From Cantharellus purpuraceus (Eukaryota; Basidiomycota; Agaricomycetes; Cantharellales; Hydnaceae): a stretch of DNA of 64,000 bases. Of the stretch, positions 6,237-45,428 are shown one piece after another; the stretch's first letter is position 1; each line of letters opens with the position of its first letter. The DNA is taken from the NCBI GenBank assembly GCA_025174535.1, contig JALBUN010000023.1:3534001-3598000 (forward strand), written 5' to 3'. The notes under the pieces are model-generated. The model ran no database searches and was not told where the DNA came from. It was given only the letters and a program-made list of their open reading frames with translations. The translations under genes and the position numbers were made by a program.

Positions 6237-6461
6237 ATTAGGTTCAAACCTCATGATGCTATGCATGGTAGAATGGGGAAAGCAGCATCTACAATAACAT
6301 TAGAAATTGTCCTCACTTCTGAATCTCGACTTCAAGGATGGCAAAATCTGTGAGGCATCTTCAACGTGTCAGGTCAATGTCATAGTCTCAAATCATGACA
6401 TAGGTGGAGTAGTGCAAGGCTTCCATATTAGATTATACCATGCATTCATTTGCAGGATCTA
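6237..6461. repeat. Host promoter-region segment, left part (duplicated at 61433-61700)
   Basis: Collinear with 61433-61700 apart from small differences, such as a 40-bp insertion in the other copy near 61620. It ends in ATCTA, the left target duplication of Gypsy-B; the sequence resumes at 45299 on the far side of 38.8 kb of inserted DNA. It is thus the distal upstream region of the gene whose exon 1 is at 46331. Confidence 0.85.
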
Positions 6462-6818
6462 TGTCAGGGTTCAAATGAGTCATATTCTATTTTTAGTATT
6501 TCTCTTGACACCCCTATCAGCACAGCCTGTCAGGGTGCGTCTCCCCTATTTCATTGCCCCTATCACTTCCCCTATCCTATTATTCCCCTATCTTGGTTCT
6601 CCTATCCATCTCCATCATTTAGTATAAAGACTCACCTTGGTGCAGTGTGATCCCCTCAGCTTGATCTCTGAGGATATCCACTGTACCAGGTAAGTCCCAT
6701 GTATTTATCAGAAACAGCTGTATAGGATATCTGCTGTACCAGCTGGCATTATCTCTTATCGGCTCTCACTTATCAAGTATCTTGTTGTTGTGGCCTCGTC
6801 ATCAGCATCGCCCTCACA
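6462..6818 (+). repeat. LTR-B, 5' LTR of E1 (357 bp)
   Basis: Begins TGTCAGGGTTCAAATGAG and ends CCCTCACA. It contains TATAAA at 6623-6628. About 30 nt downstream is AGCTTGATCT (6658-6667), the predicted RNA start. It is 15 bp shorter than the other three copies (372 bp), owing to a small deletion near 6570. Confidence 0.9.
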
Positions 6819-6832
6819 GAAGATCAAGCTCA
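6819..6832 (+). other. Gypsy-B self-priming primer-binding site (E1)
   Basis: AGATCAAGCT at 6821-6830, 2 nt inside the LTR, is the exact complement of AGCTTGATCT in the LTR at 6658-6667. No good match to a tRNA 3' end is evident. This is the Tf1/sushi layout, in which the mRNA 5' end folds back as primer. Confidence 0.6.
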
Positions 6833-6886
6833 TAAGACAACCCCACACCTCATAACACTTTCCCTATTAACTACTTCACCGATACC

Positions 6887-8023
6887 ATGACCAATCAGCT
6901 CCCTGAAGCCTATTGGGACACTCTAGGTGAAAGTGGTGGCTTTCTGTGAGCATTGCTCAACACCCAGGCACAGCTCCAGCAGCTGCAACTCCAGAACCAG
7001 CACCTCCAGAGCTGGTTCGCCAATGTCCAGAACAACCTAGCAGATGCTGCCACTGCTGCCACCATCACTGCAGCACAGACCATCTCTCAAACCACCTCAT
7101 TTCCCACACCTCCTGCATTGTCATCCATTTGCCCAATAAGGGCAGCTGAACCAGCCAAATTCAATGGAGATCGTGCAGAGACAGAAGGTTTCATTCGCTC
7201 TATCAGGCTTGCCATTGCAGTCCAGCCTACATCTTTCCCAGATGAGCGGACCAAGATCCTCTATGCCCTCTCTTTTATGACGGGAGGTTCTGCTGAAGTA
7301 TGGGCACACAATGAGACACAGGCAGTCATTGACAGGACCTCACCGCTCTCCACCTTGGAGGAATTCATTAAGCAGGTGGAGAATGCTTTTGGGGACCCTG
7401 ACCACTCTCAAACAGCATGAACAAAGTTACATGATCTTAGGATGACACCTGGCATGTCAGCGGATGAATACATGGCACAGTTTGAGATACTAGCAGGAAG
7501 GACTGGGTTTAACAATGCAGCACTGGAAGATGCCTATGCCTGAGGGCTCCCTGCAATGATTCTTGACAAGATCCATGCACAGCCGTCCCTCCCATCTGAT
7601 CTCAAGGCATGGAAGGAAGCGGCCTACCAAATTGACTGCAACCACCATCATCTTCTAGAAGTGAGATGTGCTCAGACTTCCCTCACCCCTGCTTGCTCTA
7701 CCCCATCCTGCCCTCACAGCACTCCAGTCATCTCTGTACCAACTACCTTGGCAACCTCTAATGGTGCTGCACCTATGGATATTGACTCCAACCGCCATCG
7801 CATTGAGACTTGGATGTGCTATAACTGTGGAAAGTGTGGCCATATATCCCCAGCATGCCCTGAACCATGCAAGGAACGTATCCGAGCTGATCTCACACAA
7901 ACAGCAATTGCTGGCATGATATCAGAGTCAGTAGCAGCTGCACCGAAGGCCAAGGAAGAAGCGCAGAAGGCAGTAATTCCAAAGCAAGAGGAGAAGCAGG
8001 ATTTTCAGGCCAGTCAGCAGTGA
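6887..8023 (+). pseudogene. Gypsy-B gag (E1)
   Basis: ATG 6887 (MTNQLPEAYWDTLGESGG) to TGA 8021, 379 codons including stops. It has a Gln/Leu-rich N-terminal coiled coil, a retrotransposon gag core (AAEPAKFNGDRAETEGFIRS, about 7143) and a CCHC knuckle, CYNCGKCGHISPAC (about 7816). TGA codons at 6947, 7418 and 7541 interrupt it. At 6947 and 7541, E2 reads CAA and CGA, so the stops fit decay of CGA. Pol lies in the -1 frame and overlaps the end of gag. Confidence 0.85.
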
Positions 8024-8989
8024 AGAGCATGCCCTGCCTGACAAACCGGTTTTCAGTTCTTGAATCATGTACTGTAGGGCTCACAAGTGATATGTTACAT
8101 GCACACCCCCTTGTCCATCAGACTGAAACCAAAACAGCCATGCCTGAAACCCCTTCTCAACTTCCAGCTAAACATGATGACCCTCCTCGTCTCTACCTTC
8201 AATCTGCAGACATCCGTCGATGTACAAGAATTCCCATGAAAATCCACTCAGTAGACACTGGATACCCTCTAGCAGTAGATGCACTCCTTGATAGTGGTGC
8301 TACAGGAATGTTCATTGATGCAGAATATGTCAAAACAGAGAAACTTCAAACGCGCCCTCTACCACATGCCATACCTGTTTATAACATTGATGGGACCCCA
8401 AATGAAGCAGGTTCAATCAAGGAAGAAGTCGATCTCATCTGCACATATGGGACCCATACTGAACATGCCACATTTTCAGTCACAAGCCTGGGAACCTCTG
8501 GCATAATTGTTGGGCACACCTGGCTCGTGAAGCACAACCCAGAGATAGACTGGCATACAGGAAAGGTACAGATGACTTGCTGCCCTGATTCATGTGGAGA
8601 AGTACCAGAACACAAAGAGCATTCGCTTGGCACAACTCCTTCAAATGGCAAGAACTCACACAGGCAACCCCAATATGAGGGAGACCAAAGGTTTGTTATC
8701 TTTGTAGAAGAAGACTTGGAGAATATCTATGCTGGTTCAACAGTTTCTCAACAGCTTGCACAGAAGGCTGCAGAATCTACTCCAGTCAAAACCTTTGAGG
8801 AGATTGTCCCAAAGGTGTACTGGGGATTTAAGGATGTTTTTGCAAAGGAGTCCTTTGACCAACTTCCACCTCGAAAACTGTGGGACCACGCTATTGAACT
8901 CACTCCAGGAGCGCAACCCTTCAGCACCAAGGTCTATCCAATGTCCCCAAATGAGCAGAAGGAGTTGGACACATTCCTTGAGGAGAACC
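8020..8989 (+). pseudogene. Gypsy-B pol part 1: protease and start of RT (E1)
   Basis: Encodes an aspartic protease of retropepsin type (ALLDSGATGMFID at about 8280, GIIVGHTWLVKHNPEIDW at about 8500) and the linker into RT (FSTKVYPMSPNEQKELDTFL). It runs in the -1 frame relative to gag with an open overlap upstream, suggesting frameshift expression; no convincing slippery heptamer was found. Interrupted at 8990 by a solo LTR. Confidence 0.85.
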
Positions 8990-9719
8990 TGTTATTTGGA
9001 AAACTGGACTTCTGGGGAGAAAAAGGAGAGGGGGAACAAAGGGGATAGGAGGGATAGGAGCATATAGGAGGCTCAGGAGCTTAGGAGGGGATAAGGAGAC
9101 GAGGGGAAACGGCTGAGAGGGGAAAGGAGGAGCCCCTGTAAGCTCCACAATGATCTGAACATTCACCCTAATTTTTCTTTTGATTTGTTTCATCATTTTT
9201 TCCCTATTTGACATCACCCCCCCATTTTGTTTTTATCATAAATCACTTTCCCTTTATGCACATGACACAGAACTTTTATCACGAGTTATTAGCATGCATA
9301 TCTTGTATAGCTAGATATGCAATGGACCAGAGAATTTGCTCTCACTTGTTTTTTGTTGACTGCGTCTGAACTATTTGTTTCTGGAATAACTCCAGAATGA
9401 ACGCATATTTCTACAATATTCTTCATATTCTTCCAGAGTATTGCAACATATATCCGAATCCCAGTTTGCGAAGCCTGAGCTCCACTGGTTTATTTTCTAT
9501 CAAGAATTTACTCTCATTCGAGTCATCTGCTCATGATCCCTGCTCAAATTGTCAATATCTAGACAAAGATCACATCAAATTTCATCAAACTTTGTAAGAA
9601 GATACTACTCAAGTACATCTTCAATTCGATATGCATACACCCAGTTCCCATCACTCCATCTGTCCCTATTCGAAATCTATTCTCAACACACCCTCAGCAA
9701 GGCGAAATTCTTTTCAACA
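8990..9719 (+). repeat. Solo LTR-D in E1 pol (730 bp)
   Basis: TGTTATTTGG...TTTTCAACA inside RT, with the 5-bp duplication GAACC (8985-8989, 9720-9724). E2 is uninterrupted at this point. The left half is purine-rich (GGATAGGAGG repeats). The minus-strand copy at 45429-46157 is the same family. No internal region: a solo LTR left by LTR-LTR recombination. Confidence 0.9.
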
Positions 9720-12656
9720 GAACCTACAGAATCATTGTATACATCCTTCCAAGTCACCCATGGCATCTCCTGTCTTTTTTGTGAAGAAGAAGGATGGTAA
9801 TCTTCGTTTTGTGCAAGACTACCGCAAGCTGAATGATATCACGATCAAGAACACCTACCCACTACCCCTGGTACCAGACATCACAAATAAAATTTCCACA
9901 GCCAATGCCAAGTACTTTACCAAGCTTGACATCCGATGGGGATATAACAATGTGTGTATTAAAGAGGGCAATGAGTGGAAGGCAGCCTTTCGAACCAATT
10001 GTGGTCTATTTGAACCCCTGGTCATGTTCTTTGATCTCACAAACAGCCCAGCAACCTTTCAGACAATGATGAATGGCATTTTCAAGGAGCTCATTGATGA
10101 TGGCACTATGGTAGTGTTCATGGACGACATCCTCATTTTCACTGAATCCCTAGAACAACACCACATGATCGTGCAATCTGTCCTTGAAATTCTTCAGGCC
10201 AACCACCTGTACCTCAAACCAGAGAAATGCCTTTTCTCGCAACAGAAGGTAGATTATCTTGAATTGATTCTCTCACAGGGACAGGTAGCTATGGACCCAG
10301 TTAAGGTGGCTGGAGTCAGAGACTGGCCCACACTGCACAATGTGACAGAAGTCAAATCCTTCCTGGGTTTCATCAATTTCTATCGTCGCTTCATTGAGGA
10401 CTTCTCACATATCGCAAAGCCTCTGAATCGGTCAACAAAGGCAGATACACAGTGGTCCTGGATACCCGATGGCCCAGAACAAGAAGCCTTTGATAAACTC
10501 AAGCAGCTTGTCACGTCGACTCCAATCCTTGTCCTCCCAGATCAAACCAAGCGTTTTCGACTAGAGACAGATGCTTCAGCATATGCAACAGGTGCTGTTC
10601 TATCTCAACTCTGTGACGATGAGAAATGGAGGCCAGTAGGTTTTGTATCCAAGAGCCTTTCAGATGCAGAGCACAACTATGCCATCCATGATAAGGAATT
10701 GCTCTCAGTCATCCATGGACTAGAAGAATGGCACCACATCTTGGAAGGGACCAAATACAAGATTGAAATCCTTAACGACCATCAAAACCTCACATATTTC
10801 TGTACAGCTCAGAATCTCAATCGACGACAAGCTCGCTGGTCACTATACCTTTCTTGTTTTGACTTTGAACTGATCCACCGTCCTGGACAACATTCAGCCA
10901 AACCTGATGCCCTCTCACAACGTGTAGATCATAAGCGGGGGGAGGAAGATAACCAGAACCAGGTTCTTCTTGGCCCTGAGCTGTTCCAGATCAATGCAAC
11001 ATCCACCTATCCAGGGCCAGGAGCTCAAATGATCACAGGAGAAGGAGACATATTCCTGGAACGTGTGCGGAACTGCACCAACAGAGATGAAAAGGTTGTA
11101 AAGGCTCTTAAGGAACTTGGTCCCTCTTGGAATTTACAAGGACAGAAATGGACCGAGGAGAATGGACTCGTCCTCTATTGTGGCAAGGTATATGTCTCTC
11201 TTGACCCAAAATTGCACCATGACATTGTAAGGGCACACCACGATACTCACATTACAGGTCACCCTGGTCGCTGGAGAATGACAGAACTTGTATCCCGCAG
11301 CTACTGGTGGCCTGGATTTGGACGATACATTGCCAAATACGTTAAGGGATGTGACCTCTGCAATTGGACAAAAACCTTCCCTGCTCCTCCTATGGGTAAA
11401 CTCCTGCCTAATTGTGTCCCAGATCAGAGGTGGCAAGTGATATCTGTTGACCTTATTGTAGAGCTACCCATCAGTCATGGCTATGATGCACTCCTTGTCG
11501 TTGTGGACCATCTTTCCAAACAAGCACATGTTATCCCTACCACCTCTGACATCAACTCCATAGGAGTTGCACAACTTTTCCGAGACCATGTGTGGAAACA
11601 CCACAGCCTTCCTGAGGAGATCATCAGTGACCGTGGCACCCAGTTTGTCTCTCAATTTATGCGCGAGCTCAATAAGCTTTTGGGGATCAAGGTTGCAGCA
11701 TCCACAGCATATCATCCACAAACTGATGGTCAGACGGAAAGGGTCAATCAAGAAATTGAACAATACTTGAGAGGCTTTTCGTCAATCAGCGCCAGGATGA
11801 CTGGATTGAGTGGGTTCCTCTTGCTGAATTCACATACAACAACCGCATCCACTCCTCCACGCAATCAACCCCCTTCATGCTTGATACAGGCCAACACCCA
11901 AGGCTTGGGCTAGAGCCAATCTGAGAGACACAACTTGAAGCACTGGAAGAATTCACTGAGCATATGGAGATAGCCACCACTGAGGCTCACTCTGCCCTGG
12001 AAAAGGCAGCAGATGATATGGCATGATTCTATGATGCCCATCAGCAAGCAGCCCCAGTATACAAGCTTGGTGACAAGGTCTGGCTCAACGCACAAAATAT
12101 CACCACCACCCATCCAACCAAGAAACTTGATCACAAATGGTTAGGACCATATGTGATTAATAAGGTGGTCTCGCGAAATGCCTATGGCCTACAACTTCCC
12201 CCAATCTTTGGTCGCACTCATCCAGTGTTCTCTGTTGTCTTGCTCTGGCCTTATGAAAAGGATCCTATCCCTGAACGCCAGTCATCTCCTCCACCACCTC
12301 CAGTCATTCAAGATGGAGTACAGGAATACGAAGTTGAGAAGATCCTTGACAACAGAGTTTTCCAAGGAAGACTGGAATACCTGGTGCATTGGAAGGGCTA
12401 TGGAGCTGCTGATGACCTCTGGATCCCAGCTAAGGATGCCAGTGGGGCTAGAAGGCACATTGCAGACTTCCATCAGGAGAATCCTGAAGCCCCAAGGCAT
12501 ATTTCAGCAGCCACCTATGCGGCTCTTCCCTTCAGACACTTTGAGAACTTCACAGAACCTCCCAAACAGGTCCTCTTTGATTGGACAGCTGGCAGGAACC
12601 CAACATGTGGTATTGGACACATTTCAGAGCCGCAGAATAGGCACAGTGAAGCTTAG
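9720..12656 (+). pseudogene. Gypsy-B pol part 2: RT, RNase H, integrase, chromodomain (E1)
   Basis: RT begins PMASPVFFVKKKDGNLRF and has the catalytic VFMDDIL (about 10117). RNase H keeps LETDASAYATGAVL (about 10563). The integrase has an HHCC finger (HH at about 11238, CDLC at about 11351) and a DDE core (VDLIVELP, SDRGTQFVSQF). A chromodomain follows (YEVEKILDN, LEYLVHWKGYG, about 12328-12430), ending at TAG 12654. The frame is open from 9720 to 11913 but shifts at 11767-11775 (TTGAGAGGC). E2 has the identical shift. Later TGA codons at 11922 and 12024 are also shared with E2. Confidence 0.9.
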
Positions 12657-12695
12657 CGCTCACCAAATTCATCCATGCTGAAATTCCACCAACTG

Positions 12696-12702
12696 TATAT
12701 AA
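12696..12702 (+). promoter_or_regulatory. TATA box ahead of Gypsy-B ORF3 (E1)
   Basis: TATATAA lies 60-67 nt upstream of the ORF3 ATG at 12763, in the short gap after pol. The same sequence is kept in E2 (about 44369). This suggests ORF3 has its own promoter rather than relying on the genomic RNA. Confidence 0.5.
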
Positions 12703-12762
12703 GCCAGTGAATCCACTTCCCCTTCCTCAGTAAAACCATCGTCGTTCACTACCCAACCCACC

Positions 12763-13195
12763 ATGCCTTACCAGTCTGAATCCACCCCTCTACGCTCACT
12801 CCGTTCCTACCCATCAATCACTTGGTCAGTTGACTCAAGGGATACTGCACATGCCGTAGAGGATTATAACCTCCCATCTCCACCTCCACAAGTTTATTTC
12901 CCCTTCTGGCATCATAATCCATCAAGATGCCAGACATACTACATTGGGGACCCTCTATTCATCGGCGACTCTGACATACCATACACCTTCCAAGGGCTTG
13001 CCGGTAAAGTCACCTATGAGGGAGGGAGATGATACTTGGAGCAGTTTTCAGCATGGACGATCCCATATCCCCCAGAGAGTTCACCATCCCACTTTACCCC
13101 AAGGCAGAGAAGAGTCACCATCAACACTCGTCATGGGCTCTACTTTGGCAGAGAGTGAGAAGGGACCTTGCAGAGTGCTTCAGGGTGTGTCTCTC
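12763..13195 (+). pseudogene. Gypsy-B ORF3 (E1, frameshifted)
   Basis: Sense ORF between pol and the 3' LTR, start MPYQSESTPLRSLRSYPSI. It matches the 145-aa intact ORF in E2 until a 1-nt loss in a G run near 13024 ends it early at 13032; downstream homology continues to about 13195. Rich in Pro, Tyr and Ser, with no membrane segment and no recognised domain. Not part of the standard gag-pol set, so an accessory gene. Confidence 0.7.
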
Positions 13196-13240
13196 TTGAG
13201 ATGGATGGGATGATAGTGCATATTGAGATGACATGCATTA

Positions 13241-13252
13241 AGAGGGGGGTGA
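13241..13252 (+). other. Gypsy-B polypurine tract (E1)
   Basis: AGAGGGGGGTGA directly before the 3' LTR, the expected plus-strand primer. Conserved in E2 at 44915-44926. Confidence 0.75.
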
Positions 13253-13624
13253 TGTCAGGGTTCAAATGAGTCATATTCTATTTTTAGTATTTTCTCTTGA
13301 TGCCCCTATCAGTGCAGCCTGTCAGGGTGTGTCTCCCCTATTTCATTGCCCCTATCACTTCCCCTATCCTTCCTCCCTATTATTCCCCTATCTTGGTTCT
13401 CCTATCCATCTCCATCATTTAGTATAAAGACTTGCCTTGGTACAGTGTGATCTCCTCAGCTTGATCTCTGAGGATATCTGCTGTACCAGGTAAGTCCCAT
13501 GTATTTATCAGAAACAGCTGTATAGACTGAGGATATCCACTGTACCAGCTGGCATTATCTCTTATCAGCTCTCATCTATTGAGTATCTTGTTGTTGTGGC
13601 CTTGTCATCAGCGTCGCCCTCACA
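13253..13624 (+). repeat. LTR-B, 3' LTR of E1 (372 bp)
   Basis: TGTCAGGG...CCCTCACA. Followed by TCTGT (13625-13629), whose partner is at 38918-38922 next to the E2 5' LTR, not at the left end of E1. Confidence 0.9.
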
Positions 13625-13782
13625 TCTGTCTCTGAAATCTCGGACACTGGTATTAGTGAGGGCGCAGCACATAAGCTGAAGCCACGTCCATTCCAACCCC
13701 CACGACGTACCTGACTCATTCTCTGACTCTGACCAAACCTCCAACCCAATCTCCGACCCCCAATCAGACCTAGTGCGTACCA
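13625..13782 (+). repeat. LTR-A fragment, 3' half (partner of 38549-38922)
   Basis: Starts within LTR-A at TCTGTCTCTGAAATCTCGG and ends GTGCGTACCA. It is followed by CACAG (13783-13787), the same 5 bp that precedes the 5' half at 38544-38548. The two halves were one LTR before Gypsy-B inserted into it with duplication TCTGT. Confidence 0.9.
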
Positions 13783-13830
13783 CACAGCACAGAGATTGCA
13801 TCATAATGGTGGCAACAATACCAAGGGAAA
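13783..13830 (+). pseudogene. Copia-2 gag fragment (continuation of 37940-38548)
   Basis: After the CACAG duplication the sequence encodes AQRLHHNGGNNTKGN, the basic/Gly-rich stretch expected right after the gag core whose 5' part ends at 38548. It is separated from that part by 25 kb and in permuted order. Confidence 0.6.
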
Positions 13831-14956
13831 TGGTTTTGGAACCTGCAAAATTATGGTGTTAGGGCAAACTCTAAATCACCACAATTCTGTGAATGAACAG
13901 CTGAGAAGAATATCAAACCCTGCTGCAGCAACTCCAGAAACAATTTAACATTTGTACTTTGGTTACAATCCCTTTGTTAAGGGCTGGAAAGCTTGAGGGG
14001 TCAAAGGGAATAACCAGGGTTTGACTGCTTGTTACACCCTGTAACACCAAGTCCGATCTCTGGACTCCATCTCTAACTCCATCTCCATCTCCCTACTTCA
14101 CCTCCATCAACTCCACCTTTGTCAACTCCAAACTCCTTTTCTTATTGTTCTTCATAAGTAGTTTCTTCTTATGGGGTACAACAAACCCCTTCTTTTATAT
14201 TGCTTAGTATAGTTTGGACTTGGGTCCAAACTCCAAACTCCTTTCTGTGTTGTACTCCATATCTGTCTTATTGTTTTTCATTTTAGTTTTAGCATTCAAT
14301 TCTCCACATACTTATATGGGCTACTTTCTGTCTATTACAGTAGTTCATATATCGACTAAGATTTGCCCCATCAACTTCTTGGTTGCTAGCTTCTTGACAA
14401 GTACCTTCTTGACAAGTTGAACTCCAGATCCCTGATCCAACTCCATACTCTGATCCAACTCCATACTCTGATCCAACTCCATACTCTGAACTCCAAAATA
14501 TTGGACCGATGATCCAAGGGGGTGCAACACACAAGTTGAAGCCAAGTCCACTTGATCTGACTCAATAGTATTGCTCCCACTCTGTCTCTGGTTGAACTGG
14601 AACAGTAAAGTCCCACTCCTCTCTATTACTAGCAGCCTAACTCTGGTTACTCCTTTTGAACTTCCAAGCATTCCAGCACCTTAACATCATTTTGGAATAT
14701 CTGGACCCCTAAGCATCCATGAACTCTAGACTCTGGAAGTTTTATTCATTTCTTGCTGCTAAGAAATGTATTACTTTTCTGCATATAGTCTGCATTGACC
14801 AATACAAGGGATTGTAACCAAAGTACAAATGTTAAATCATTTCTGGAGTTGTGCTGCAGCAGGATTTAATATTCTTCTTAGCTGTTTATTCACGAAATTG
14901 TGGTGATTTAGAGTTTGCCCTAACACCATAACTTTGTAGGTTCTAAAACAATAGGG
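13831..14956. mobile_element. Element with about 140-150 bp terminal inverted repeats
   Basis: The left arm (13831 to about 13975, starting GGTTTTGGAACCTGCAAAAT) is the near-complement of the right arm (about 14812-14956). Shared inner landmarks are TTATGGTGTTAGGGCAAACT and the AACTCCAGAAA region. The middle holds CTCCAACTC-like low-complexity DNA, including three copies of CTGATCCAACTCCATACT (about 14432-14490), and no real ORF. Flanking sequence differs on the two sides (Copia-2 gag left, LTR-C right), so no clean target duplication can be read. Confidence 0.6.
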
Positions 14957-15656: not shown

Positions 15657-15850
15657 TTTCCTCCCAAATCTCTCTCTTCTCCTGGAGCCCAGGGGCCTTG
15701 TAATCACACTCAAAGAATTATACACTCATCACTTGCATGCTATTGAGCCTCTTGAACAGGATGTTCTTGCACCCCATGGTGATGTCCAGATGCATGATTG
15801 TAATATTCATCACACTACTGACACTATTGACCATAATGACAATGTGAGCT

Positions 15851-16503
15851 GGATCAGTTTCCATCGGCAGCCCAGGTCAGGATTTTATGGTTGATATTGA
15901 TAGTAGGCACTCCTGTAGAGACCTTCGCTGTTGCTTAACTGCTAACTTCATCCTGTCTACCTCTTTAAATGACAGCTGGCTCAGCGGATCTTTGGGTAGC
16001 ATCCAATGCCTATGCAGACCCTCCATGTGCATTGAAGAATCAATACAATTCAGCTGCTTCATCCTCAAGTGCCCAACAGGGTGGAGCTTTTGCTACCTCA
16101 TATGTCAATGGGTCTGGTGTGTCCGGTCCTATATATACTGACACCAGTTAGTTTCAGAAATTCATTACAACTTTTAGTGACTACAGTGCTATCAGGGTGT
16201 CTCCAGTCGCTATTGCAGCAATCCAGGTGGTCAATCATTACTTTTCACCTGTGACCACCCTGACAAGTTCAATCCTGGAACTTCCTATGGATGAGTGAGT
16301 TTAGTTTCAAGTTTTTGTGTTCCAGAGTCTCACAAAAATGTCCATTTCTAGACTTATTGGACTTGCATTATAGTCCATTTCTCTCCTACAGGGTGTTTGA
16401 CCAAGGGGCACTCGCAAACGACATGTTCTCTCTCAAGCCTGCGACGGATGCTCATCCTTATTCCTGGGTGGAATGGATAATTCACTTTTCATCAGTTCCA
16501 TAG
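15851..16503 (+). pseudogene. Pepsin-like (A1) aspartic protease relic
   Basis: One exon encodes SVSIGSPGQDFMVDID ending in a split codon. A 73-nt GT-AG intron (15903-15975) follows, and the next exon resumes TGSADLWVASNAYADPPC, giving the DTGS active-site motif across the junction. Further on, GGAFATSYVNGSGVSGPIYT matches the flap strand region, and after another intron-like gap VFDQGALANDMFSLKP matches the segment following the first lobe. A TGA lies upstream of the first exon, and the frames are lost between 16150 and 16380. The second catalytic Asp is not found. Either a decayed host secreted protease or a fragment of one. Confidence 0.6.
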
Positions 16504-16512
16504 AAATCCATA

Positions 16513-34527: not shown

Positions 34528-34679
34528 ATGATATAGTCATTGCTTTGGTATATACATGCTTTCGCTAGTCATTCTCACAACATCATGGTCAAGTTCTGTC
34601 AGTGTAGCTGCTTCAATAGCAGCAACTTTCGTTGAGGTAGCCTTGCCCTTGAAAGAGATCAAAGGACTTGAGTTAATAA

Positions 34680-35508
34680 TCACCATAGTCGGGCCTCGAC
34701 ACTCTTGACGCACTCCTGCTCAACCAGCGCGCGGCGAGGAGCAACAGTCTGGGCCATGTGCCCGGGCGCAGCTTTGTCGGGCGTGCCGTAGAGTGTGGCT
34801 GGGACATGAACACGGTGTCCAAGGGGGAGTAGGTCCTTGGCATCACCCAGGTCTGCAAAGTACACGCTGCACACATTCGTGCCCCACGTTTTATCTCATG
34901 TTAGCTTTTAGAGCGGTGCCCTCTCCGAGTTTATTGTGCTCAACCGGCGCCGCCTGCACCGGGCCCTGTCGCCCTCACCCTCCCTCTCCCTTCTCCAGCT
35001 TGCCCTCCTCCTGCTCGTGGGCATACCTGCCCACCACGCCGTGCACACCTCTCCCACCTTCCCCCCGGCTCCCACGCCCTCATCCTCCACGCACACGATG
35101 GCGCCGGCCTCCTCACCACCCAGGCGCTCTCCGTGCTGGGGTGCCACGTCATGGCACAGGTCCCCTGCGCGTGGGGCAGCACGGGCGAGATGTGCGCACG
35201 CACTGCCGGTGCAAAGGACGTCTGCGGTGGCGATGCTGTCGAGGTCGTCCGAGATGTGAGGGGTGACGTCGTCGATCCCCTGGGCGGCAAGGGCGTCTGG
35301 GAGGCGTGTCGCAAGGTGTTGAAGACCGCTGGACAGGTGCCTGCGCACGTGTGTCTCTCTCACAGCACATTTCTGACCTTCGTTGCAGTTTACGACGCTC
35401 GTGGGCAACACAGAAACGGCATTCCCTACCCCGAATGCACATTTCAAGAGCAACATGCGCTCGCTGCGCCGCGCCTTTGTCAAGAAGGACCATAAAAATC
35501 GAATTTGA
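34680..35508 (+). pseudogene. MDR-superfamily (zinc alcohol dehydrogenase/quinone reductase-like) relic
   Basis: GC-rich. The plus strand encodes, in shifting frames, HVPGRSFVGRAVECGWDMNT (GroES-like domain), SGALSEFIVLNRRRLHRA (34912-34965), a dinucleotide-binding stretch (TTQALSVLGCHVMAQVPCAW, about 35110) and VWEACRKVLKTAGQ. A 52-nt GT-AG intron (35337-35388) and FTTLVGNTETAFPTPNAHFK to a stop at 35506 complete it. Order and spacing fit a medium-chain oxidoreductase. A TAG after MNTVSKGE and at least two frameshifts make it dead. Open frames on the opposite strand are composition shadows. High CpG content contrasts with the surrounding decayed transposons. Confidence 0.6.
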
Positions 35509-35968
35509 GGGTAGGGAAGCCAGAGACACGGAACGGTGCTGAGGGCGGCACATCACTCTCTGTGGCATCCATCTTCGTGCTAAAGAAGAATCAAGCACAT
35601 TCAGAGCACCATCTTGGAACAAGCAATGTCTCCATTTTCAAAGTTGGGCAGTGGTGAAGGCCTTGTTCAGGGCGGATATTTCAGCACATAGGATGTGATT
35701 TACAGATACAATAGAAATGCCAATAGATGGTGAGTAAAGGCAGGACATGCAAAGGAGCCATGAAAACTTAATTATCATCTGATCCTTCAGGGTTTTCGTC
35801 CCTAGCAGGCAAAGGAGTATTTGGCTGAGCCAAGGTGATGTGTAGTCAAGGAAAATTCAAAGGCCTTGTGTTGTGGCCATCCGCTTAGGTGAATTTACAC
35901 AAGCATACTCAAAGTCATCACGTGATTGGTGGCATCTGTTCATCGTGTTCATTCTTCTCTGTGTAGTT
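35509..35968. other. Leader region before the DDE transposase, nothing recognised
   Basis: No supported ORF. No terminal inverted repeat matching the far side of the transposase could be found. Confidence 0.35.
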
Positions 35969-37158
35969 ATGCCAGAATTTCGTCAACACTACTCCAAAGA
36001 TCTTAAACAACACGTTGTATATCAGTCTTTAACACTAGGGTATAGTACAGCAGAAATCGCGAAGAATCTTGATATATCACCACATGTAGTCCAACGAGCA
36101 CTCCAACTGTGGCGAGAGATTGGTGATGTTGTATGGGACCCACAAACTTATGCAAAGCAAGGCCGAGCATGTTTATTAGATACAGGCTGTATTGAAGTAA
36201 GTCTTGGCTCAGCTGTCTCTTAGCATTGATATTCAAAACTGTCACAGTTCACCCTTGCAATGCTGGACCGAAACCCTGATATATATCTCAATGAAATATC
36301 AGAGAGATTAAATGATCAATTAGATGTCTCTGTATCATTGAGTACAATCCAGAGAACCCTGAAACTGCTTGGAATCACATCTAAAAAGGTGTGTTTGTTA
36401 GTTTGTATGTTACTGATTCATTGACTTGTTTGGTAAGCTGTCAAGAGCTGCTGCAGAACACTGTGAAGCTGCCCGTGAACTGTTTGTCTTCAAGATATCA
36501 CGGGAACCACCAGAGCACCCGGTCCCCACCAACGAGAGCTCTATCAATCTACTCACTACATACCGGTCAATGGGCTGCTCATACAAGGGGGCTCGTGCAG
36601 GAGTAACAAGCTACTTTCAGCGTGGTGATCGGTATGTTCACTGTCTCTAGCCTGCTCCATACTCATGTATGGGTCTCACAAAGATTTTCACTCTTGGCTG
36701 CTCTATCACTTGAGGGCATATTGTATGCACAGATCGTCCATGGCTCCTTCAATGGGAACACCTTCAAGATCTTTCTAAAGGGTTTGCTAGAGTGCATGAA
36801 TCCTTACCCTGCACCAAACAGTGTTTTGGTAATGGATAACTGTGCAATTCATCATGTTGATGGCATTCATGAAATGTGCAATGAGCGGTAAAACAGCCTT
36901 ATCTTTATTTGAATATGTTGCTAATCCTCTTGTAGTGGTGTTAAGCTCATGTACCTACCCCCATATTCCCCTGATTTCAACCCAATTGAGGAATGCTTTT
37001 CGTTTCTCAAGGCTTATATTCGCCGACATGGACTTTGCTTCCATGCAAAGATTGAGAGTGGTGAGGAAGCACATGCCTTTATGTTCCTGTATGAGATGTT
37101 GAATATGGTGATTGCATGCCATGCATGGGGATGGTTTCACCACTCAATGTATGTATAA
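35969..37158 (+). CDS. IS630/Tc1-mariner DDE transposase, five exons, 329 aa
   Basis: ATG 35969 (MPEFRQHYSKDLKQHVVYQS). Exons 35969-36196, 36248-36388, 36438-36631, 36684-36887 and 36936-37158. The four introns are 48-52 nt GT-AG and every join is in frame, giving an uninterrupted 329 aa. The N-terminus holds helix-turn-helix regions (STAEIAKNLDISPHVVQRAL). The DDE_3 core has RTTYR-like NLLTTYRSMG, LSLEGILYAQIVHGSFNG, the second Asp in VLVMDNCAIHH and the Glu in YSPDFNPIEECFS. The first acidic residue, expected in an FVDES motif, reads PTNESSIN: Asp is Asn. The gene is structurally intact but catalysis is doubtful. Confidence 0.8.
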
Positions 37159-37435
37159 TTAGGACGAAGTGAAGAGTACAATGCAGATACCATGCTTAGT
37201 CTATTTTGTCATGTATGTTGAAATATAAGACTTTCTGGGTGTTCTATACACTACTTTAGCTATGTTTCAATAATCTTAAAAGCTAACAGACTGCAGTGAT
37301 ATGTTGAATAATGCAGAAAACAGTTCATAAAAATTTGTATTTCCAGAAAAAGTGAAGTTTACTAAGGAGGTTTTAAAGGAAAAAATCACAAAATAACACT
37401 ACATTAGGGATTGTAGGTTATGGAACATTTTATTT
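37159..37435. other. AT-rich sequence downstream of transposase
   Basis: No ORF. Could contain the transposon's right end, but no matching left terminus was identified. Confidence 0.3.
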
Positions 37436-37610
37436 CATTTTATTTCATTCTGAAATGAGCTAGATACTGCGTTCACAAGTTTGAGGCCTCGCTCACGCTT
37501 CAAACAGGCGCTGGCCTTATGTAATGCAAACCGCTGTAATGTGGCAGAGTGACAAACCATGTCACCCCATGTCACAGATTTATTTGGCAGATTTGTTGTT
37601 TGCCATATTT
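37436..37610 (-). repeat. Diverged inverted repeat, right arm (partner 32427-32600)
   Basis: Reverse complement of the left arm as described there. Together the arms bracket about 5 kb with two host-gene relics and the DDE transposase. Confidence 0.6.
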
Positions 37611-37639
37611 GGCTCTTGCATAGTCGCAAGAGCATTCTT

Positions 37640-37890
37640 TTTGTTTTCCCCTTTAACCTTCCTTTTTGTTCTTGAAAGATTATAAAATAGCTACATCTGC
37701 ATTACCTCTTCCTCAGTGGTTTGACACCATCTGTGCAAATACTGAGGTAAGATACTTACTACTGTCTTGCATTGATTCTTACTTATCTGTACACTCTGGT
37801 AGATCATCTGTACAGGTAAATTATATATAGTGGTTTGACACCGTCTGTGCAAATGCTGAGATCATCCATACAGTTGCATTAAATCTTACA
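37640..37890 (+). repeat. Copia-2 5' LTR, partial (right end)
   Basis: Ends TCTTACA just before the primer-binding site GGTTATTGGGCT (37891-37902). Contains two related segments of GTGGTTTGACACC...CTGTGCAAA (about 37717 and 37832) and a TATATA. The left boundary is not determined. Confidence 0.45.
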
Positions 37891-37939
37891 GGTTATTGGG
37901 CTCCCTGCTCCCTACTCCAAATAAGCATATCCAGCTCCG

Positions 37940-38548
37940 ATGTCCACAGCACTCACCACCATCGATCTCCTCCCCTCCTTGGTTCCTGAGCTTATGCCAA
38001 CTGGCTTGAACTGGACCACATTTGCCATGTGTTTCCAGGATGCCATTGAAGCAAAAGGCTTGTGGGGAATTTTGATGGCACTACTATTTTCCCCATTCTC
38101 CCTGCAACTCTCACTCCTGAACAGAAGTCTGCGCTCATGCAGTGGATCAAGGAGGACTGCTCTGCCAAAGCCCTCCTTACCCATCATATCCCTGACTCAA
38201 CCCTGATCCGTATCCATGGGAAAACATCCCTGAAGGACTGGTGGGACCTCATTTCAAAGGAGTTTTCTTCAAAGGGTGCCTTCACACAGGCTGACTTGTG
38301 TACTCAATTCATGGAGTCCAAGTGCCCTGACAAAAGCAATGTGTGTGAATTTTTGGACAATCTGGCTACCTATGGCATCATCATTGAAGAGAAGGATTAC
38401 CATTCCACAATCATTAAATCCCTTCTGCTTCACCTCTCTGCTTTCACTTTAAACTTACTTGCTGGTGCAAGACTGTACAGTACCGCAAAAACCATTGATC
38501 CTGATGAACTTATCTCACTGGTTTCCAAGGAGTACAAATGTCACACAG
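37940..38548 (+). pseudogene. Copia-2 gag 5' part
   Basis: Starts MSTALTTIDLLPSLVPELMP at 37940. A Copia-type gag (UBN2-like) core follows: TGLNWTTFAMCFQDAIEAKG, then FDGTTIFP and DWWDLISKEFSSKGAFTQAD. A 1-nt frame change near 38065 breaks it. It is cut at 38548 by LTR-A with duplication CACAG, and its continuation is at 13783-13830, on the other side of the permuted block. Confidence 0.75.
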
Positions 38549-38922
38549 TGTTATGACTATATTCATTAATGCCCAGATCCCTGTCTGATCCACTCAGATC
38601 CCTGTGCATATGAAATCTATACTCCATTTGGAAACCATCACATCTCCATTTATCTGTCTGATTGTCACTGCCAAATCTCACCCATCCATCTCCGGTTCCG
38701 ATTGATGCATCAGCATCACCATAGGAACCCAGACATCCATCCCCGTCGGACTCAGACATACTCATGTAAGGCCGTCGGCCTTGGAGACCCATCACTGGAG
38801 TAATTATTATTAGATTTCAAATATGTATTTAAGTTGCCTGACTGGGGACTTCATTCCCCAGTTTGAATATCAAATCACACTAGTTCCTAAGTCCGATCCT
38901 AACTCTCTAAGTCATACTCTGT
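38549..38922 (+). repeat. LTR-A fragment, 5' half (partner of 13625-13782)
   Basis: TGTTATGAC... to CATACTCTGT. Left duplication CACAG at 38544-38548 matches 13783-13787. Interrupted by Gypsy-B with duplication TCTGT (38918-38922 and 13625-13629). Confidence 0.9.
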
Positions 38923-39294
38923 TGTCAGGGTTAAAATGAGTCATATTCTATTTTTAGTATTTTCTCTTGATGCCCCTATCAGCGCAGCCTGTCAGGGTGC
39001 ATCTCCCCTATTTCATTGCCCCTATCACTTCCCCTATCCTTCCTCCCTATTATTCCCCTATCTTGGTTCTCCTATCCATCTCCATCATTTAGTATAAAGA
39101 CTTGCCTTGGTGCAGTGTGATCCCCTCAGCTTGATCTCTGAGGATATCTGCTGTACCAGGTAAGTCCCATGTATTTATCAGAAACAGCTGTATAGACTGA
39201 GGATATCCGCTGTACCAGCTGGCATTATCTCTTATTGGCTCTCACTTATCAAGTATCTTGTTGTTGTGGCCTCGTCATCAGTGTCACCCTCACA
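38923..39294 (+). repeat. LTR-B, 5' LTR of E2 (372 bp)
   Basis: TGTCAGGG...CCCTCACA. TATAAA at 39093-39098; AGCTTGATCT at 39128-39137 is the predicted RNA start. Confidence 0.9.
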
Positions 39295-39308
39295 GAAGAT
39301 CAAGCTCA
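39295..39308 (+). other. Gypsy-B self-priming primer-binding site (E2)
   Basis: AGATCAAGCT at 39297-39306 is the exact complement of 39128-39137, as in E1. Confidence 0.6.
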
Positions 39309-39362
39309 TAAGACAACCCCACACCTCATAACACTTTCCCTATTAACTACTTCACCGATACC

Positions 39363-40505
39363 ATGACCAATCAGCTCCCTGAAGCCTATTGGGACACTCT
39401 AGGTGAAAGTGGTGGCTTTCTGCAAGTGTTGTTCAACACCCAGGTGCAGCAGCTCCAGCAGCTGCAACTCCAGAACCAGCACCTCCAGAGCCAGTTTGCC
39501 AATGTCCAGAACAACCTAGCAGATGCTGCCACTGCTGCCGCCATCGCTGCAGCACAGACCATCTCTCAGACCACCTCATTTCCCACACCATCTCCTACAT
39601 CGTCATCCGTTTTCCCAATAAGGGCAGCTGAACCAGCCAAATTCAATGGAGATCGTGCAGAGACAGAAGGTTTCATTCGCTCTATCAGGCTTGCCATTGC
39701 AGTCCAGCCTACATCTTTCCCAGATGAGCGGACCAAGATCCTCTATGCCCTCTCTTTTATGATGGGAGGTTCTGCTGAAGTATGGGCACACAATGAGACA
39801 CAGGCAGTCATTGACAGGACCTCACCGCTCTCCACCTTGGAGGAATTCATTAAGCAGGTGGAGAATGCTTTTGGGGACCCTGACCACTCTCAAACAGCAT
39901 GAACAAAGTTACATGATCTTGGGACGACACCTGGCATGTCAGCGGATGAATACACAGCACAGTTTGAGATACTAGCAGGAAGGACCGGGTTTAACAATGC
40001 AGCACTGGAAGATGCCTATGCCCGAGGGCTCCCTGCAATGATTCTTGACAAGATCCATGCACAGCCATCCCTCCCATCTGATCTCAAGGCATGGAAGGAA
40101 AAGGCCTGTCAAATTGACCGCAACCACCGTCATCTTCTAGAAGTGAGACGTGCTCAGACTTCCCTCACTCCTGCTCGCTCTACCCCATCCCACCCTCACA
40201 GCACTCCGGTCATCTCTGTACCAACTACCTTGGCAACCTCTAATGGTGCTGCACCTATGGATATTGACTCCAACTGCCATCGCATTGAGACTCGGACGTG
40301 CTATAACTGTGGAAAGCATGGCCATATATCCCCAGCATTCCCTGAACCACACAAGGAACATATCTGAGCTGATCTCACACAAACAGCAATTGCCGGCATG
40401 ATATCAGAGTCAGTAGCAGCTGCACCGAAGGCCAAGGAAGAAGCGCAGAAGGCAGTAATTCCAAATCAAGAGGAGAAGCAGGATTTTCAGGCCAGTCAGC
40501 AGTGA
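39363..40505 (+). pseudogene. Gypsy-B gag (E2)
   Basis: ATG 39363 to TGA 40503, 381 codons. TGA at 39900 (shared with E1) and at 40366 (CGA in E1). The knuckle reads CYNCGKHGHISPAF: the last Cys has become Phe, although E1 keeps it. Encodes a 540-nt intact N-terminal half. Confidence 0.85.
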
Positions 40506-43500
40506 AGAGCATGCCCTGCCTGACAAACCGGTTTTCAGTTCTTGAATCATGTACTGTAGGGCTCACAAGTGATATGTTACATGCACACTCCCTTGTCCAT
40601 CAGACTGAAACCAAAACAGCCATGCCTGAAACCCCTTCTCAACTTCCAGCTAAACATGATGACCCTCCTCGTCTCTACCTTCAATCTGCAGACATCCGTC
40701 GATGTACAAGAATTCCCATGAAAATCCACTCAGTAGACACTGGATACCCTCTAGCCATGGATGCACTCCTCGATAGTGGTGCTACAGGAATGTTCATTGA
40801 TGCAGAATATGTCAAAGCAGAGAAACTTCAAACATGCCCTCTACCACATGCCATACCTGTTTATAACATTGATGGGACCCCAAATGAAGCAGGTTCAATC
40901 AAGGAAGAAGTCGATCTCATCTGCACATATGGGACCCATACTGAACATGCCACATTTTCAGTCACAAGCCTGGGAACCTCTGGCATAATTGTTGGGCACA
41001 CCTGGCTTGTGAAGCACAACCCAGAGGTAGACTGGTGTACAGGAAAGATACAGATGACTTGCTGCCCTGATTCATGTGGAGAAGTACCAGAACACAAAGA
41101 GCATTCGCTTGGTACAACTCCTTCAAATGGCAAGAACTCACACAGGCAACCCCAATACAAGGGAGACCGAACATTTGTTATCTTTGTAGAAGAAGACTTG
41201 GAGAATATCTATGGTTCAACAGTTTCTCAACAGCTTGCACAGAAGGCTGCAGAATCTACTCCAGTCAAAACCTTTGAAGAGATTGTCCCAAAGGTGTACT
41301 GGGGATTTAAGGATGTTTTTGCAAAGGAGTCCTTTGACCAACTTCCACCTCAAAAACTGTGGGACCACACTATTGAACTCACTCCAGGAGCGCAACCCTT
41401 CAGCACCAAGGTTTATCCAATGTCCCCAAATGAGCAGAAGGAGTTGGACACATTCCTTGAGGAGAACCTATGGAATCATCGTATATGTCCTTCCAAGTCA
41501 CCCATGGCATCCCCTGTCTTTTTTGTGAAGAAGAAGGACAGTAATCTTTGTTTTGTGCAAGACTACTGCAAGCTGAATGATATCACAATCAAGAATGCCT
41601 ACCCACTACCCCTGGTACCAGACATCATGAATAAAATTGCTGCAGCCAATGCCAAGTACTTTACCAAGCTTGACATCCGATGGGGATATAACAATGTGTG
41701 TATTAAAGAGGGCAATGAGTGGAAGGCAGCCTTTCGAACCAATTGTGGTCTATTTGAACCCCTGGTCATGTTCTTTGGTCTCACAAACAGCCCAGCAACC
41801 TTTCAGACAATGATGAATGGCATTTTCAAGGAGCTCATTGATGATGGCACTATGGTAGTGTTCATGGACGACATCCTCATTTTCACTGAATCCCTAGAAC
41901 AACACCACATGATCGTGCAATCTGTCCTTGAAATTCTTCAGGCCAACCACCTGTACCTCAAACCAGAGAAATGCCTTTTCTCGCAACAGAAGGTAGATTA
42001 TCTTGAATTGATTCTCTCACAGGGACAGGTAGCTATGGACCCAGTTAAGGTGGCTGGAGTCAGAGACTGGCCCACACTGCACAATGTGACAGAAGTCAAA
42101 TCCTTCCTGGGTTTCATCAATTTCTATCGTCGCTTCATTGAGGACTTCTCACATATCACAAAGCCTCTGAATCGGTCAACAAAGGCAGATACACAGTGGT
42201 CCTGGATACCCGATGGCCCAGAACAAGAAGCCTTTGATAAACTCAAGCAGCTTGTCATGTCGACTCCAATCCTTGTCCTCCCAGATCAAACCAAGCGTTT
42301 TCGACTAGAGACAGATGCTTCAGCATATGCAACAGGTGCTGTTCTATCTCAACTCTGTGACGATGAGAAATGGAGGCCAGTAGGTTTTGTATCCAAGAGC
42401 CTTTCAGATGCAGAGCACAACTATGCCATCCATGATAAGGAATTGCTCTCAGTCATCCATGGACTAGAAGAATGGCACCACATCTTGGAAGGGACCAAAG
42501 ACAAGGTTGAAATCCTTAACGACCATCAAAACCTCACATATTTCTGTACAGCTCAGAATCTCAATCGACGACAAGCTCGCTGGTCACTATACCTTTCTTG
42601 TTTTGACTTTGAACTGATCCACCGTCCTGGACAACATTCAGCCAAACCTGATGCCCTCTCACGACATGTAGATCATAAGCGGGGGAGGAAGATAACCAGA
42701 ACCAGGTTCTTCTTGGCCCTGAGCTGTTCCACATCGATGCGACATCCACCTATCCAGGGCCAGAAGCTCAAATGATCACAGGAGAAGGAGACATATTCCT
42801 GGAACGTGTGCAGAACTGCACCAACAGAGATGAAAAGGTTGTAAAGGCTCTTAAGGAACTTGGTCCCTCTTGGAATTTATGAGGACAGGAATGGACCAAG
42901 GAGAATGGACTCGTCCTCTATTGTGGCAAGGTATATGTCCCTCTTGACCCAAAATTGCGCCATGACATTGTATCCCGCAGCTACTGGTGGCCTGGATTTG
43001 GACGATACATTGCCAAATACGTCAAGGGATGTGACCTCTGCAATCGGACAAAAACTTTCCCTGCTCCTCCTATGGGTAAACTCCTGCCTAATTGTGTCCC
43101 AGATCAGAGGTGGCAAGTGATATCTGTTGACCTTATTGTAGAGCTACCCATCAGTCATGGCTATGATGCACTCCTTGTCGTTGTGGACCATCTTTCCAAA
43201 CAAGCACATGTTATCCCTACCACCTCTGACATCAACTCCATAGGAGTTGCACAACTTTTCCGAGACCATGTGTGGAAACACCACAGCCTTCCTGAGGAGA
43301 TCATCAGTGACCGTGGCACCCAGTTTGTCTCTCAATTTATGCGCGAGCTCAATAAGCTTTTGGGGATCAAGGTTGCAGCATCCACAGCATATCATCCACA
43401 AACTGATGGTCAGACGGAAAGGGTCAATCAAGAAATTGAACAATACTTGAGAGGCTTTTCGTCAATCAGCGCCAGGATGACTGGATTGAGTGGGTTCCTC

Positions 43501-44329
43501 TTGCTGAATTCACATACAACAACCGCATCCACTCCTCCACGCAATCAACCCCCTTCATGCTTGATACAGGCCAACACCCAAGGCTTGGGCTAGAGCCAAT
43601 CTGAGAGACACGGCTTGAAGCACTGGAAGAATTCACTGAGCATATGGAGACGGCCACCACTGAGGCTCACTCTGCCCTGGAAAAGGCAGCAGATGATATG
43701 GCATGATTCTATGATGCCCATCAGCAAGCAGCCCCAGTATACAAGCTTGGTGACAAGGTCTGGCTCAACGCACAAAATATCACCACCACCCATCCAACCA
43801 AGAAACTTGATCACAAATGGTTAGGACCATATGTGATTAATAAGATGGTCTCACGAAATGCCTATGGCCTACAACTTCCCCCAATCTTTGGCCGCACTCA
43901 TCCAGTGTTCTCTGTTGCCATCCCTATGAAAAGGATCCCATCCCTGAATGCCAGTCATCTCCTCCACCACCTCCAGTCATTCAAGATGGAGTACAGGAAT
44001 ACGAAGTTGAGAAGATCCTTGACAGCAGAGTTTTCCAAGGAAGACTGGAATACCTGGTGCATTGGAAGGGCTATGGAGCTGCTGATGACCTCTGGATCCC
44101 AGCTAAGGATGCCAGTGGGGCTAGAAGGCACATTGCAGACTTCCATCAGGAGAATCCTGAAGCCCCAAGGCATATTTCAGCAGCCACCTATGCGGCTCTT
44201 CCCTTCAGATGCTTTGAGAACTTCACAGAACCTCCCAAACAGGTCCTCTTTGATTGGACAGCTGGCAGGAACCCAACATGTGGTATTGGACACATTTCAG
44301 AGCCGCAGAATAGGCACAGTGAAGCTTAG
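40502..44329 (+). pseudogene. Gypsy-B pol (E2)
   Basis: Protease (ALLDSGATGMFIDAEYVKAE), RT (VFMDDIL at about 41868), RNase H (LETDASAYATG) and a chromodomain ending at TAG 44327. The frame is open to 42681, where a G run is one base shorter than in E1. TGA at 42882. A 63-nt in-frame deletion at 42971-42972 removes the His pair of the integrase zinc finger; in E1 these bases are 11230-11292, bounded by TTGTA repeats. The frame shift at 43447-43455 and the TGA codons at 43602 and 43704 are the same as in E1. Confidence 0.9.
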
Positions 44330-44368
44330 CACTCACCAAATTCATCCATGCTGAAATTCCACTAACTG

Positions 44369-44375
44369 TATATAA
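44369..44375 (+). promoter_or_regulatory. TATA box ahead of Gypsy-B ORF3 (E2)
   Basis: TATATAA about 60 nt upstream of ATG 44436; identical to E1. Confidence 0.5.
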
Positions 44376-44435
44376 GCCAGTGAATCCACTTCCCCTTCCT
44401 CAGTAAAACCATCGTCGTTCACTACCCAACCCACC

Positions 44436-44873
44436 ATGCCTTACCAGTCTGAATCCACCCCTCTACACTCACTCCGTTCCTACCCATCAATCACTTGGTC
44501 AGTTGACTCAAGGGATACTGCACATGCCGTAGAGGATTATAACCTCCCATCTCCACCTCCACAAGTTTATTTCCCCTTCTGGCATCATAATCCATCAAGA
44601 TGCCAGACATACTACATTGGGGACCCTCTATTCATCGGCGACTCTGACATACCATACACCTTCCAAGGGCTTGCCGGTAAAGTCACCTATGAGGGAGGGG
44701 AGATGATACTTGGAGCAGTTTTCAGCATGGACGATCCCATATCCCCCAGAGAGTTCACCATCCCACTTTACCCCAAGGCAGAGAAGAGTCACCATCAACA
44801 CTCGTCATGGGCTCTACTTTGGCAGAGAGTGAGAAGGGACCTTGCAGAGTGCTTCAGGGTGTGTCTCTCTTGA
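44436..44873 (+). CDS. Gypsy-B ORF3, intact accessory ORF (145 aa)
   Basis: ATG 44436 (MPYQSESTPLHSLRSYPSIT) to TGA 44871. It is the only full-length reading frame left in the element. Composition is Pro/Ser/Tyr-rich in the first half and more basic towards the end (LWQRVRRDLAECFRVCLS). No transmembrane helix, zinc finger or protease motif is seen. It lies in sense orientation between pol and the polypurine tract with its own TATA box, where envelope-like or other accessory genes sit in some retrotransposons, but it does not look like an envelope protein. Function unknown. Confidence 0.65.
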   Translation: MPYQSESTPLHSLRSYPSITWSVDSRDTAHAVEDYNLPSPPPQVYFPFWHHNPSRCQTYYIGDPLFIGDSDIPYTFQGLAGKVTYEGGEMILGAVFSMDDPISPREFTIPLYPKAEKSHHQHSSWALLWQRVRRDLAECFRVCLS

Positions 44874-44914
44874 GATGGATGGGATGATAGTGCATATTGA
44901 GATGACATGCATTA

Positions 44915-44926
44915 AGAGGGGGGTGA
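44915..44926 (+). other. Gypsy-B polypurine tract (E2)
   Basis: AGAGGGGGGTGA immediately before the 3' LTR. Confidence 0.75.
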
Positions 44927-45298
44927 TGTCAGGGTTCAAATGAGTCATATTCTATTTTTAGTATTTTCTCTTGATGCCCCTATCAGTGCAGCCTGTCAGG
45001 GTGTGTCTCCCCTATTTCATTGCCCCTATCACTTCCCCTATCCTTCCTCCCTATTATTCCCCTATCTTGGTTCTCCTATCCATCTCCATCATTTAGTATA
45101 AAGACTTGCCTTGGTACAGTGTGATCCCCTCAGCTTGATCTCTGAGGATATCTGCTGTACCAGGTAAGTCCCATGTATTTATCAGAAACAGCTGTATAGA
45201 CTGAGGATATCCACTGTACCAGCTGGCATTATCTCTTATTGGCTCTCACTTATCAAGTATCTTGTTGTTGTGGCCTCATCATCAGTGTTGCCCTCACA
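44927..45298 (+). repeat. LTR-B, 3' LTR of E2 (372 bp)
   Basis: TGTCAGGG...CCCTCACA, followed by ATCTA and the host promoter sequence. Confidence 0.9.
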
Positions 45299-45428
45299 AT
45301 CTAGGATCTCCCACTTATAGGCACTGAGGTGGTGGCTTGACATATACAGTAGGTGCACTCACTAGACTTAATTTCCACCAGTCAGCACCATACTGAAGCT
45401 CCAATCAAGTGAGCCATATGGCCCTAAT
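45299..45428. repeat. Host promoter-region segment, middle part
   Basis: Collinear with 61696-61825. Ends in CTAAT, the left duplication of the solo LTR-D. Confidence 0.85.

Follow-up and report, generated by a model that had tools for sequence, protein, structure and literature searches.

The 64,000-nucleotide stretch of the Cantharellus purpuraceus genome analyzed here (the window; C23:3534001-3598000, contig JALBUN010000023.1) is an island of nested transposons. Two copies of a retrotransposon family named Gypsy-B lie in it in the same orientation, as revealed by self-comparison of the window, and bracket a 25.3 kb block; the target site duplications (TSDs) at their ends are identical only crosswise, from one copy to the other. 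The genome amounts to 40.15 Mb in 50 contigs, and the contig of the window measures 3.97 Mb; the few contigs and the large contig size suggest an assembly from long reads. All bare coordinates are window positions, and C-numbers denote contigs of the same assembly. The outer flanks are named L and R, the block end and the block start P and Q, and the two original Gypsy-B insertions X and Y. The features around the two copies are as follows.

6237-6461, forward strand: left flank, the left half of a dispersed host repeat, ending with the TSD ATCTA (6457-6461)
6462-13624, forward strand: Gypsy-B copy 1, with long terminal repeats (LTRs) at 6462-6818 and 13252-13624; in the history preferred below it would be a recombinant, X on the left and Y on the right
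13625-38922, forward strand: permuted block of 25.3 kb, with the TSD TCTGT at both ends (13625-13629 and 38918-38922)
13625-13782, forward strand: right part of a solo LTR-A, cut by Gypsy-B Y, with the TSD CACAG next to it (13783-13787)
13788-13832, forward strand: continuation of a Copia gag, followed by an insertion resembling a miniature inverted-repeat transposable element (MITE; 13833-13977)
37540-38548, forward strand: Copia-type element with an LTR at approximately 37540-37890 and gag at 38050-38548, ending with the TSD CACAG
38549-38922, forward strand: left part of the solo LTR-A, cut by Gypsy-B Y (window self-comparison)
38923-45298, forward strand: Gypsy-B copy 2, with LTRs at 38923-39294 and 44926-45298; in the same history a recombinant, Y on the left and X on the right
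45299-45428, forward strand: right flank of the host repeat, beginning with the TSD ATCTA (45299-45303); the repeat resumes at 46158-46462 beyond an insert
61433-62111, forward strand: uninterrupted copy of the host repeat, with an empty ATCTA site at 61696

Both Gypsy-B copies carry reverse transcriptase and RNase H in their open reading frames (ORFs), the ORF of copy 1 also gives integrase matches, and the LTRs are paired, which places the family in Ty3/Gypsy. Among the relatives of the polymerase ORF that bear an organism name, the best-ranked one belongs to Psilocybe cf. subviscida (57% identity over 85%), as would be expected of a mushroom-type fungus. The outer flanks of copies 1 and 2 share ATCTA and their inner flanks share TCTGT, while the own pairs are mismatched (ATCTA/TCTGT for copy 1 and TCTGT/ATCTA for copy 2). 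We estimate the probability of two such crosswise 5-bp identities by chance at around 0.26^10 = 1e-6; judged by the reverse complements of the pentamers, an inverted reading fits neither ATCTA nor TCTGT. As a control, the ends of 10 other Gypsy-B copies, drawn from those with both ends among the listed search matches, were compared, and matching own TSDs were found for six and mismatched ones for four. The duplication of the family is 5 bp, yet a mismatch of a copy's own TSDs is not rare. By contrast with the two Gypsy-B copies, two further LTR-A insertions of the window are each flanked by an identical pair: ACTCA (around 46507-57940) and ATTAT (around 50400-51000). An initial annotation of this DNA had listed ATCTA, TCTGT and CACAG as pairing across elements; all of them were found where it placed them, and the crosswise arrangement of the two Gypsy-B copies is confirmed as real. 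Copy 1 also holds a foreign insert of about 0.7 kb (8991-9718), an inverted relative of which (86%) is located in the right flank (45429-46130).

The outer flanks were once joined to each other. The joined left and right flanks match contiguously at 11 of 22 genomic places, and among these is window 61433-61825, in agreement with the empty ATCTA site that had been pointed out in the host copy at 61696. Three of the other 11 places span the joint with short matches (69%), two are the window's own halves, and six cover only query positions 7-72. The ancestral adjacency of L and R is verified.

The inner flanks lead to a second adjacency. CACAG is present at 38544-38548 and 13783-13787, on either side of the split LTR-A, which is broken at the same base in both parts: compared with the window's other LTR-A copies, 38549-38922 and 13625-13782 overlap by 5 bp. 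The earlier view that this LTR-A has its own CACAG duplication and was split by the second Gypsy-B insertion is borne out, the two parts sharing the cut base. The Copia gag frame stays open across the joint 38548/13788. Among 60 matches of the joined gag, one place outside the window crosses the joint (C10:584318-584640, 76%), and the 45 bp past the joint align with it end to end at a score of 35, the maximum in 1000 shuffles being 25. The same 45 bp do not rise above shuffles when compared with a second copy on C49 (312 of 1000 reach the score) and have no significant local match there. The proposed continuation of the gag from 38548 to 13783 stands in part: the frame is open and the sequence contiguous at C10, but the right side is recognizable over 45 bp only (13788-13832). 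Two candidates were rejected on inspection. C3:963218-963555, taken as a second right inner joint, turned out to be the 3' LTR that ends an ordinary LTR-A element, with a MITE behind it, and a 20 bp extension of LTR-A homology into the gag flank at C6:525774-525793 is due to chance. The ancestral adjacency of P and Q (block end to block start) is verified.

Together, the L-R and P-Q adjacencies imply that the block and one Gypsy-B were closed on themselves before the exchange, as a circle or as a tandem unit, unless a further break lies inside the block. The block order is permuted relative to the ancestral order, as told from the P-Q and L-R adjacencies elsewhere in the genome. This topology, a block plus one Gypsy-B closing on itself and opened within another Gypsy-B, is sound. 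The initial annotation had described 13625-38922 plus one Gypsy-B as a closed circle opened inside another Gypsy-B, which the verified adjacencies support. The adjacencies, the crosswise TSDs, the direct orientation and the near-identical 3' part of the copies are observed, and from them we infer the circular form.

The most likely explanation is the entry of an extrachromosomal circle of approximately 32 kb via homologous recombination between Gypsy-B copies, which we regard as probable. X would have inserted at ATCTA of the host repeat to give L-X-R, and Y, independently, at TCTGT of the solo LTR-A inside the Copia gag to give P-Y-Q. A segment with P-Y-Q would have closed into the ~32 kb circle at another point of the block, presumably by end joining and perhaps at 32046/32047. 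Y on the circle would then have recombined homologously with the chromosomal X in the same orientation, the crossover probably falling in or near the near-identical 3' part. A single crossover of this kind would open the circle inside Gypsy-B and produce L-[X/Y]-Q...P-[Y/X]-R.

The comparison of the two copies delimits two segments at the 3' end of copy 1.

12795-13565, forward strand: exchange tract, where 1 of 771 bp is mismatched with copy 2 (44468-45239), as compared with 23-24 mismatches for the closest other family member (18 copies)
13566-13624, forward strand: final 59 bp of copy 1, the same as in a C36 copy and differing from copy 2 at 10 of 59 sites; possibly a separate conversion or a retained resident end

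Overall, copies 1 and 2 differ at 154 of 6366 sites, plus inserts; 143 of the differences are transitions, and 107 are CpG-type in appearance. Along copy 1, mismatches occupy 104 of 2769 sites up to 9961, 40 of 3538 in 9962-13565, and 10 of the last 59 (Fisher's test, p = 5e-12 for the first region versus the second and 2e-11 for the tract versus the last 59 bp, with borders picked post hoc). The longest mismatch-free run is 658 bp, a length reached by none of 20000 shuffles that spread the 154 mismatches uniformly over 6366 sites (shuffle maximum 610), although such shuffles ignore the clustering of CpG-like sites, 108 of 1195 of which lie in the run. For the family comparisons, all copies were turned to one strand, 19 of them at the 5' end and 18 at the 3' end. 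Over 6462-8990, copies 1 and 2 show 86 differences in 2526 sites and are no closer to each other than to the family, whose nearest members have 82-88 in about 2450. Over 11288-12794, they are clearly closer, with 22 differences in 1500 sites as against 43-49 for the nearest others. A search with the 3' end of copy 1 gave copy 2 next at 99%, a C6 copy at 97% and the remaining full-length rows at 94-95% among the matches listed; with the 5' end of copy 2, copy 1 was not among the best 40 of 494 candidates. At family-uniform columns of the 3' part, 22 non-family bases are common to both copies, with 9 and 10 private ones, and in 13488-13624 none is shared and five are private to copy 2. An exchange or conversion tract between the Gypsy-B copies is thus present. 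Judged by the pattern of mismatches, near-identity restricted to the 3' part fits recombination between the copies near the 3' LTR, and the homologous exchange suggested at the outset gains from the single mismatch in 771 bp.

The interior of the block was searched for the point of closure and for a source. Its remaining features are as follows.

16532-22127, forward strand: dispersed segment S5, with several copies on C6
23010-32046, forward strand: E2, an element of the LTR-A family that starts after TGCGT and is truncated before its 3' end, with no adjoining 3' LTR
32047-32258, forward strand: piece of 212 bp, found elsewhere only at C6:580666-580880 (96%); candidate closure scar
32493-37539, forward strand: DNA transposon of 5 kb with terminal inverted repeats, with partial relatives of about 95% on C49, C23, C3 and C1; it apparently abuts the Copia LTR

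Closure by recombination between two Gypsy-B copies was considered and rejected, as a single TSD and a single split LTR-A are common to the inner flanks. Both inner flanks come from one insertion, and the circle was therefore not closed at Gypsy-B; the initial annotation had named no closure point. From the sequence at the joints, the border between E2 and the 212 bp piece (32046/32047) is perhaps the best candidate for the closure; about 1 bp of shared sequence is found at this left joint of the piece. The 212 bp piece at a truncated LTR-A end resembles filler DNA at a repaired break. The stretch 16927-22664, which includes the start of an LTR-A element, equals C6:532597-538314 at 95% on the same strand over 5.7 kb. 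Parts of it also recur on C6, C45 and C20. Both pieces point to C6, but descent of the block from it is only a lead: S5 has several copies there, and of the 42 kb between the C6 pieces the greater part is unread. In the similarity searches for block parts only the best candidates were scored (40 per search). Within that scope, neither an unpermuted source nor a second near-identical copy was found with the Copia gag joint, with 15659-16531, or with 32259-32492 bar a 50 bp match (best 40 of 494, 2205 and 84 candidates, respectively). When C6 sequence lying upstream of the 212 bp match was used to look for a source scar, no other copy came up (26 candidates scored). A simple duplication is made less likely by the lack of any retained source among the candidates scored.

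Several observations weigh against the entry of a circle through Gypsy-B recombination. In the 5' part, the two copies share 35 non-family bases (42 and 36 private), which implies some common history there as well, and a conversion unconnected with any circle would leave the same pattern of 3' similarity. When the four LTRs were compared, none of six informative columns supported the swapped pairing predicted from the TSDs; four columns, all inside the near-identical tract, grouped 5' with 5' and 3' with 3', and two supported the unswapped pairing (the count included flank columns, and on reading the printed alignment none of the six is one). Outside the tract, over the final 59 bp, 5 + 9 sites separate the swapped pairs and 7 + 3 the unswapped ones. 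These ends mildly favor the unswapped pairing, though the changes are mostly CpG-type, a kind that readily recurs. The last 59 bp of copy 1 equal those of the C36 copy (C36:46640-47565; 0 of 59 differing), and the 3' flanking bases and the remainder of the element differ. At least one more conversion, apparently between LTR ends, is therefore likely, and the exchange tract may be a conversion too. The simple view in which every site retained its own LTR end was dropped because of the same match to C36, and the LTRs cannot settle which ends were once paired. Finally, no scar at a source was seen among the best candidates scored, with most of C6 unread, and the closure point is a candidate only.

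A history free of circles, already named as an alternative in the initial annotation, would start from a tandem duplication around P-Y-Q, after which gap repair or a double exchange would have brought a copy of Y-Q...P-Y into X. It predicts an identical final order with identical crosswise TSDs, and the region is rich in direct repeats. We consider it unlikely: two ectopic events at non-matching positions and the loss of the tandem source would be needed, and the block's unique parts yielded no second near-identical copy among the best 40 candidates per search. An assembly error, in which the paths of two similar repeats were swapped within their near-identical tract, seems improbable to us as well. 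Such a swap could sit on the 771 bp with one mismatch; the LTR ends outside the tract mildly favor the unswapped pairing, and the four mismatched controls could partly be assembly faults. However, the two copies differ at 154 sites and by inserts, and the contig number and the length of this contig suggest long reads. Moreover, un-swapping the copies leaves a 25 kb block closed through Y, so that a circle, a tandem array or a third misjoin would still be needed. Very improbable is a third alternative, in which integrase transposed a composite Gypsy-block-Gypsy unit into ATCTA. In its favor, the outer LTR ends are exact and flanked by one TSD. It requires, however, a prior tandem or circle and a 39 kb substrate, and it expects both copies to be recent, evenly similar duplicates of one element; the observed difference varies between 0.1% and 17% along the element, and in their 5' parts the copies resemble each other no more than they resemble other family members.

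Other Gypsy-B copies bear signs of rearrangement. In C48:327150-384253, two full copies, both among the mismatched controls, share ATTGC crosswise. Their remaining pentamers, GATCC before the LTR start and CAGAC after the LTR end, have one exact occurrence each genome-wide, at C48:383887 and C48:384242. These sites bracket 362 bp, the size of a solo LTR, and a third C48 insertion is presumed to be one. The C48 duplications ATTGC, GATCC and CAGAC would then close a three-way cycle that decodes as two inversions side by side, one of about 41 kb and one of about 2.8 kb. Two further copies, on C3 and C5, have mismatched own TSDs and two candidate partners each on other contigs. Gypsy-B recombination seems not to be unique to the window, unless the window and C48 are both assembly faults.

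The movement of chromosome segments via circular DNA is rarely provable afterwards. Here TSDs and nested insertions fix ancestral adjacencies in one genome, so that the history is readable even within a transposon island. If the circle entry is true, TSDs linked into cycles would tell inversions (as on C48) from circle insertions (as in the window) in a single assembly, with no comparison strain, and if the approach generalizes, the rate of circle re-entry in fungi could be counted from existing assemblies. As a tentative extension, transposon-rich chromatin of this genome may give rise to large circles that are excised through end joining and return to the chromosomes through homologous recombination at a high-copy Gypsy family.

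Known systems offer partial parallels. In cattle, the serial translocation by circular intermediates of Durkin 2012 reportedly moved a segment via a circle, as its title states, and its junctions are said not to be retrotransposon-to-retrotransposon. In titles and abstracts of the papers listed, with few subscription journals covered, we found no circle inferred from crosswise duplications of LTR retrotransposons, and a query for Agaricomycetes with extrachromosomal circular DNA (eccDNA) gave no match. As far as the available parts of these sources go, the closest fungal case is the eccDNA-mediated amplification of region B in wine yeast (Galeote 2011, PMC3053389), where a circularly permuted order is likewise taken as evidence for a circular intermediate; its breakpoints have little or no homology, whereas a shared retrotransposon contains the joints here, and target duplications within one genome reveal the order. 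Yeast Ty circles, from what was accessible of PMC4751563, are consistent with within-genome recombination. According to the portion of PMC9694575 consulted, one rice-blast genome compared with 306 others gave no circle-mediated case; transposons were masked, so events inside repeats were beyond its reach. Human segmental duplications (PMC7450558, in part) similarly show a change of order attributed to circularization of the donor, in contrast to the several kb of homology at the integration site here. The model for transposed genes in Arabidopsis (PMC2869330, as excerpted) also lets a circle integrate by recombination with similar target repeats, but uses the same repeats for excision and integration, while here closure and integration involve different sequences. 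Exchanged TSDs served in Drosophila (PMC3355041, in the section seen) as proof of ectopic recombination between transposon copies; those copies are inverted and yield an inversion, whereas ours are direct and point to a closed circle. In conclusion, circle-mediated insertion is already known elsewhere, and the Gypsy-B locus adds a well-documented new case that is useful for its type of evidence and its host.

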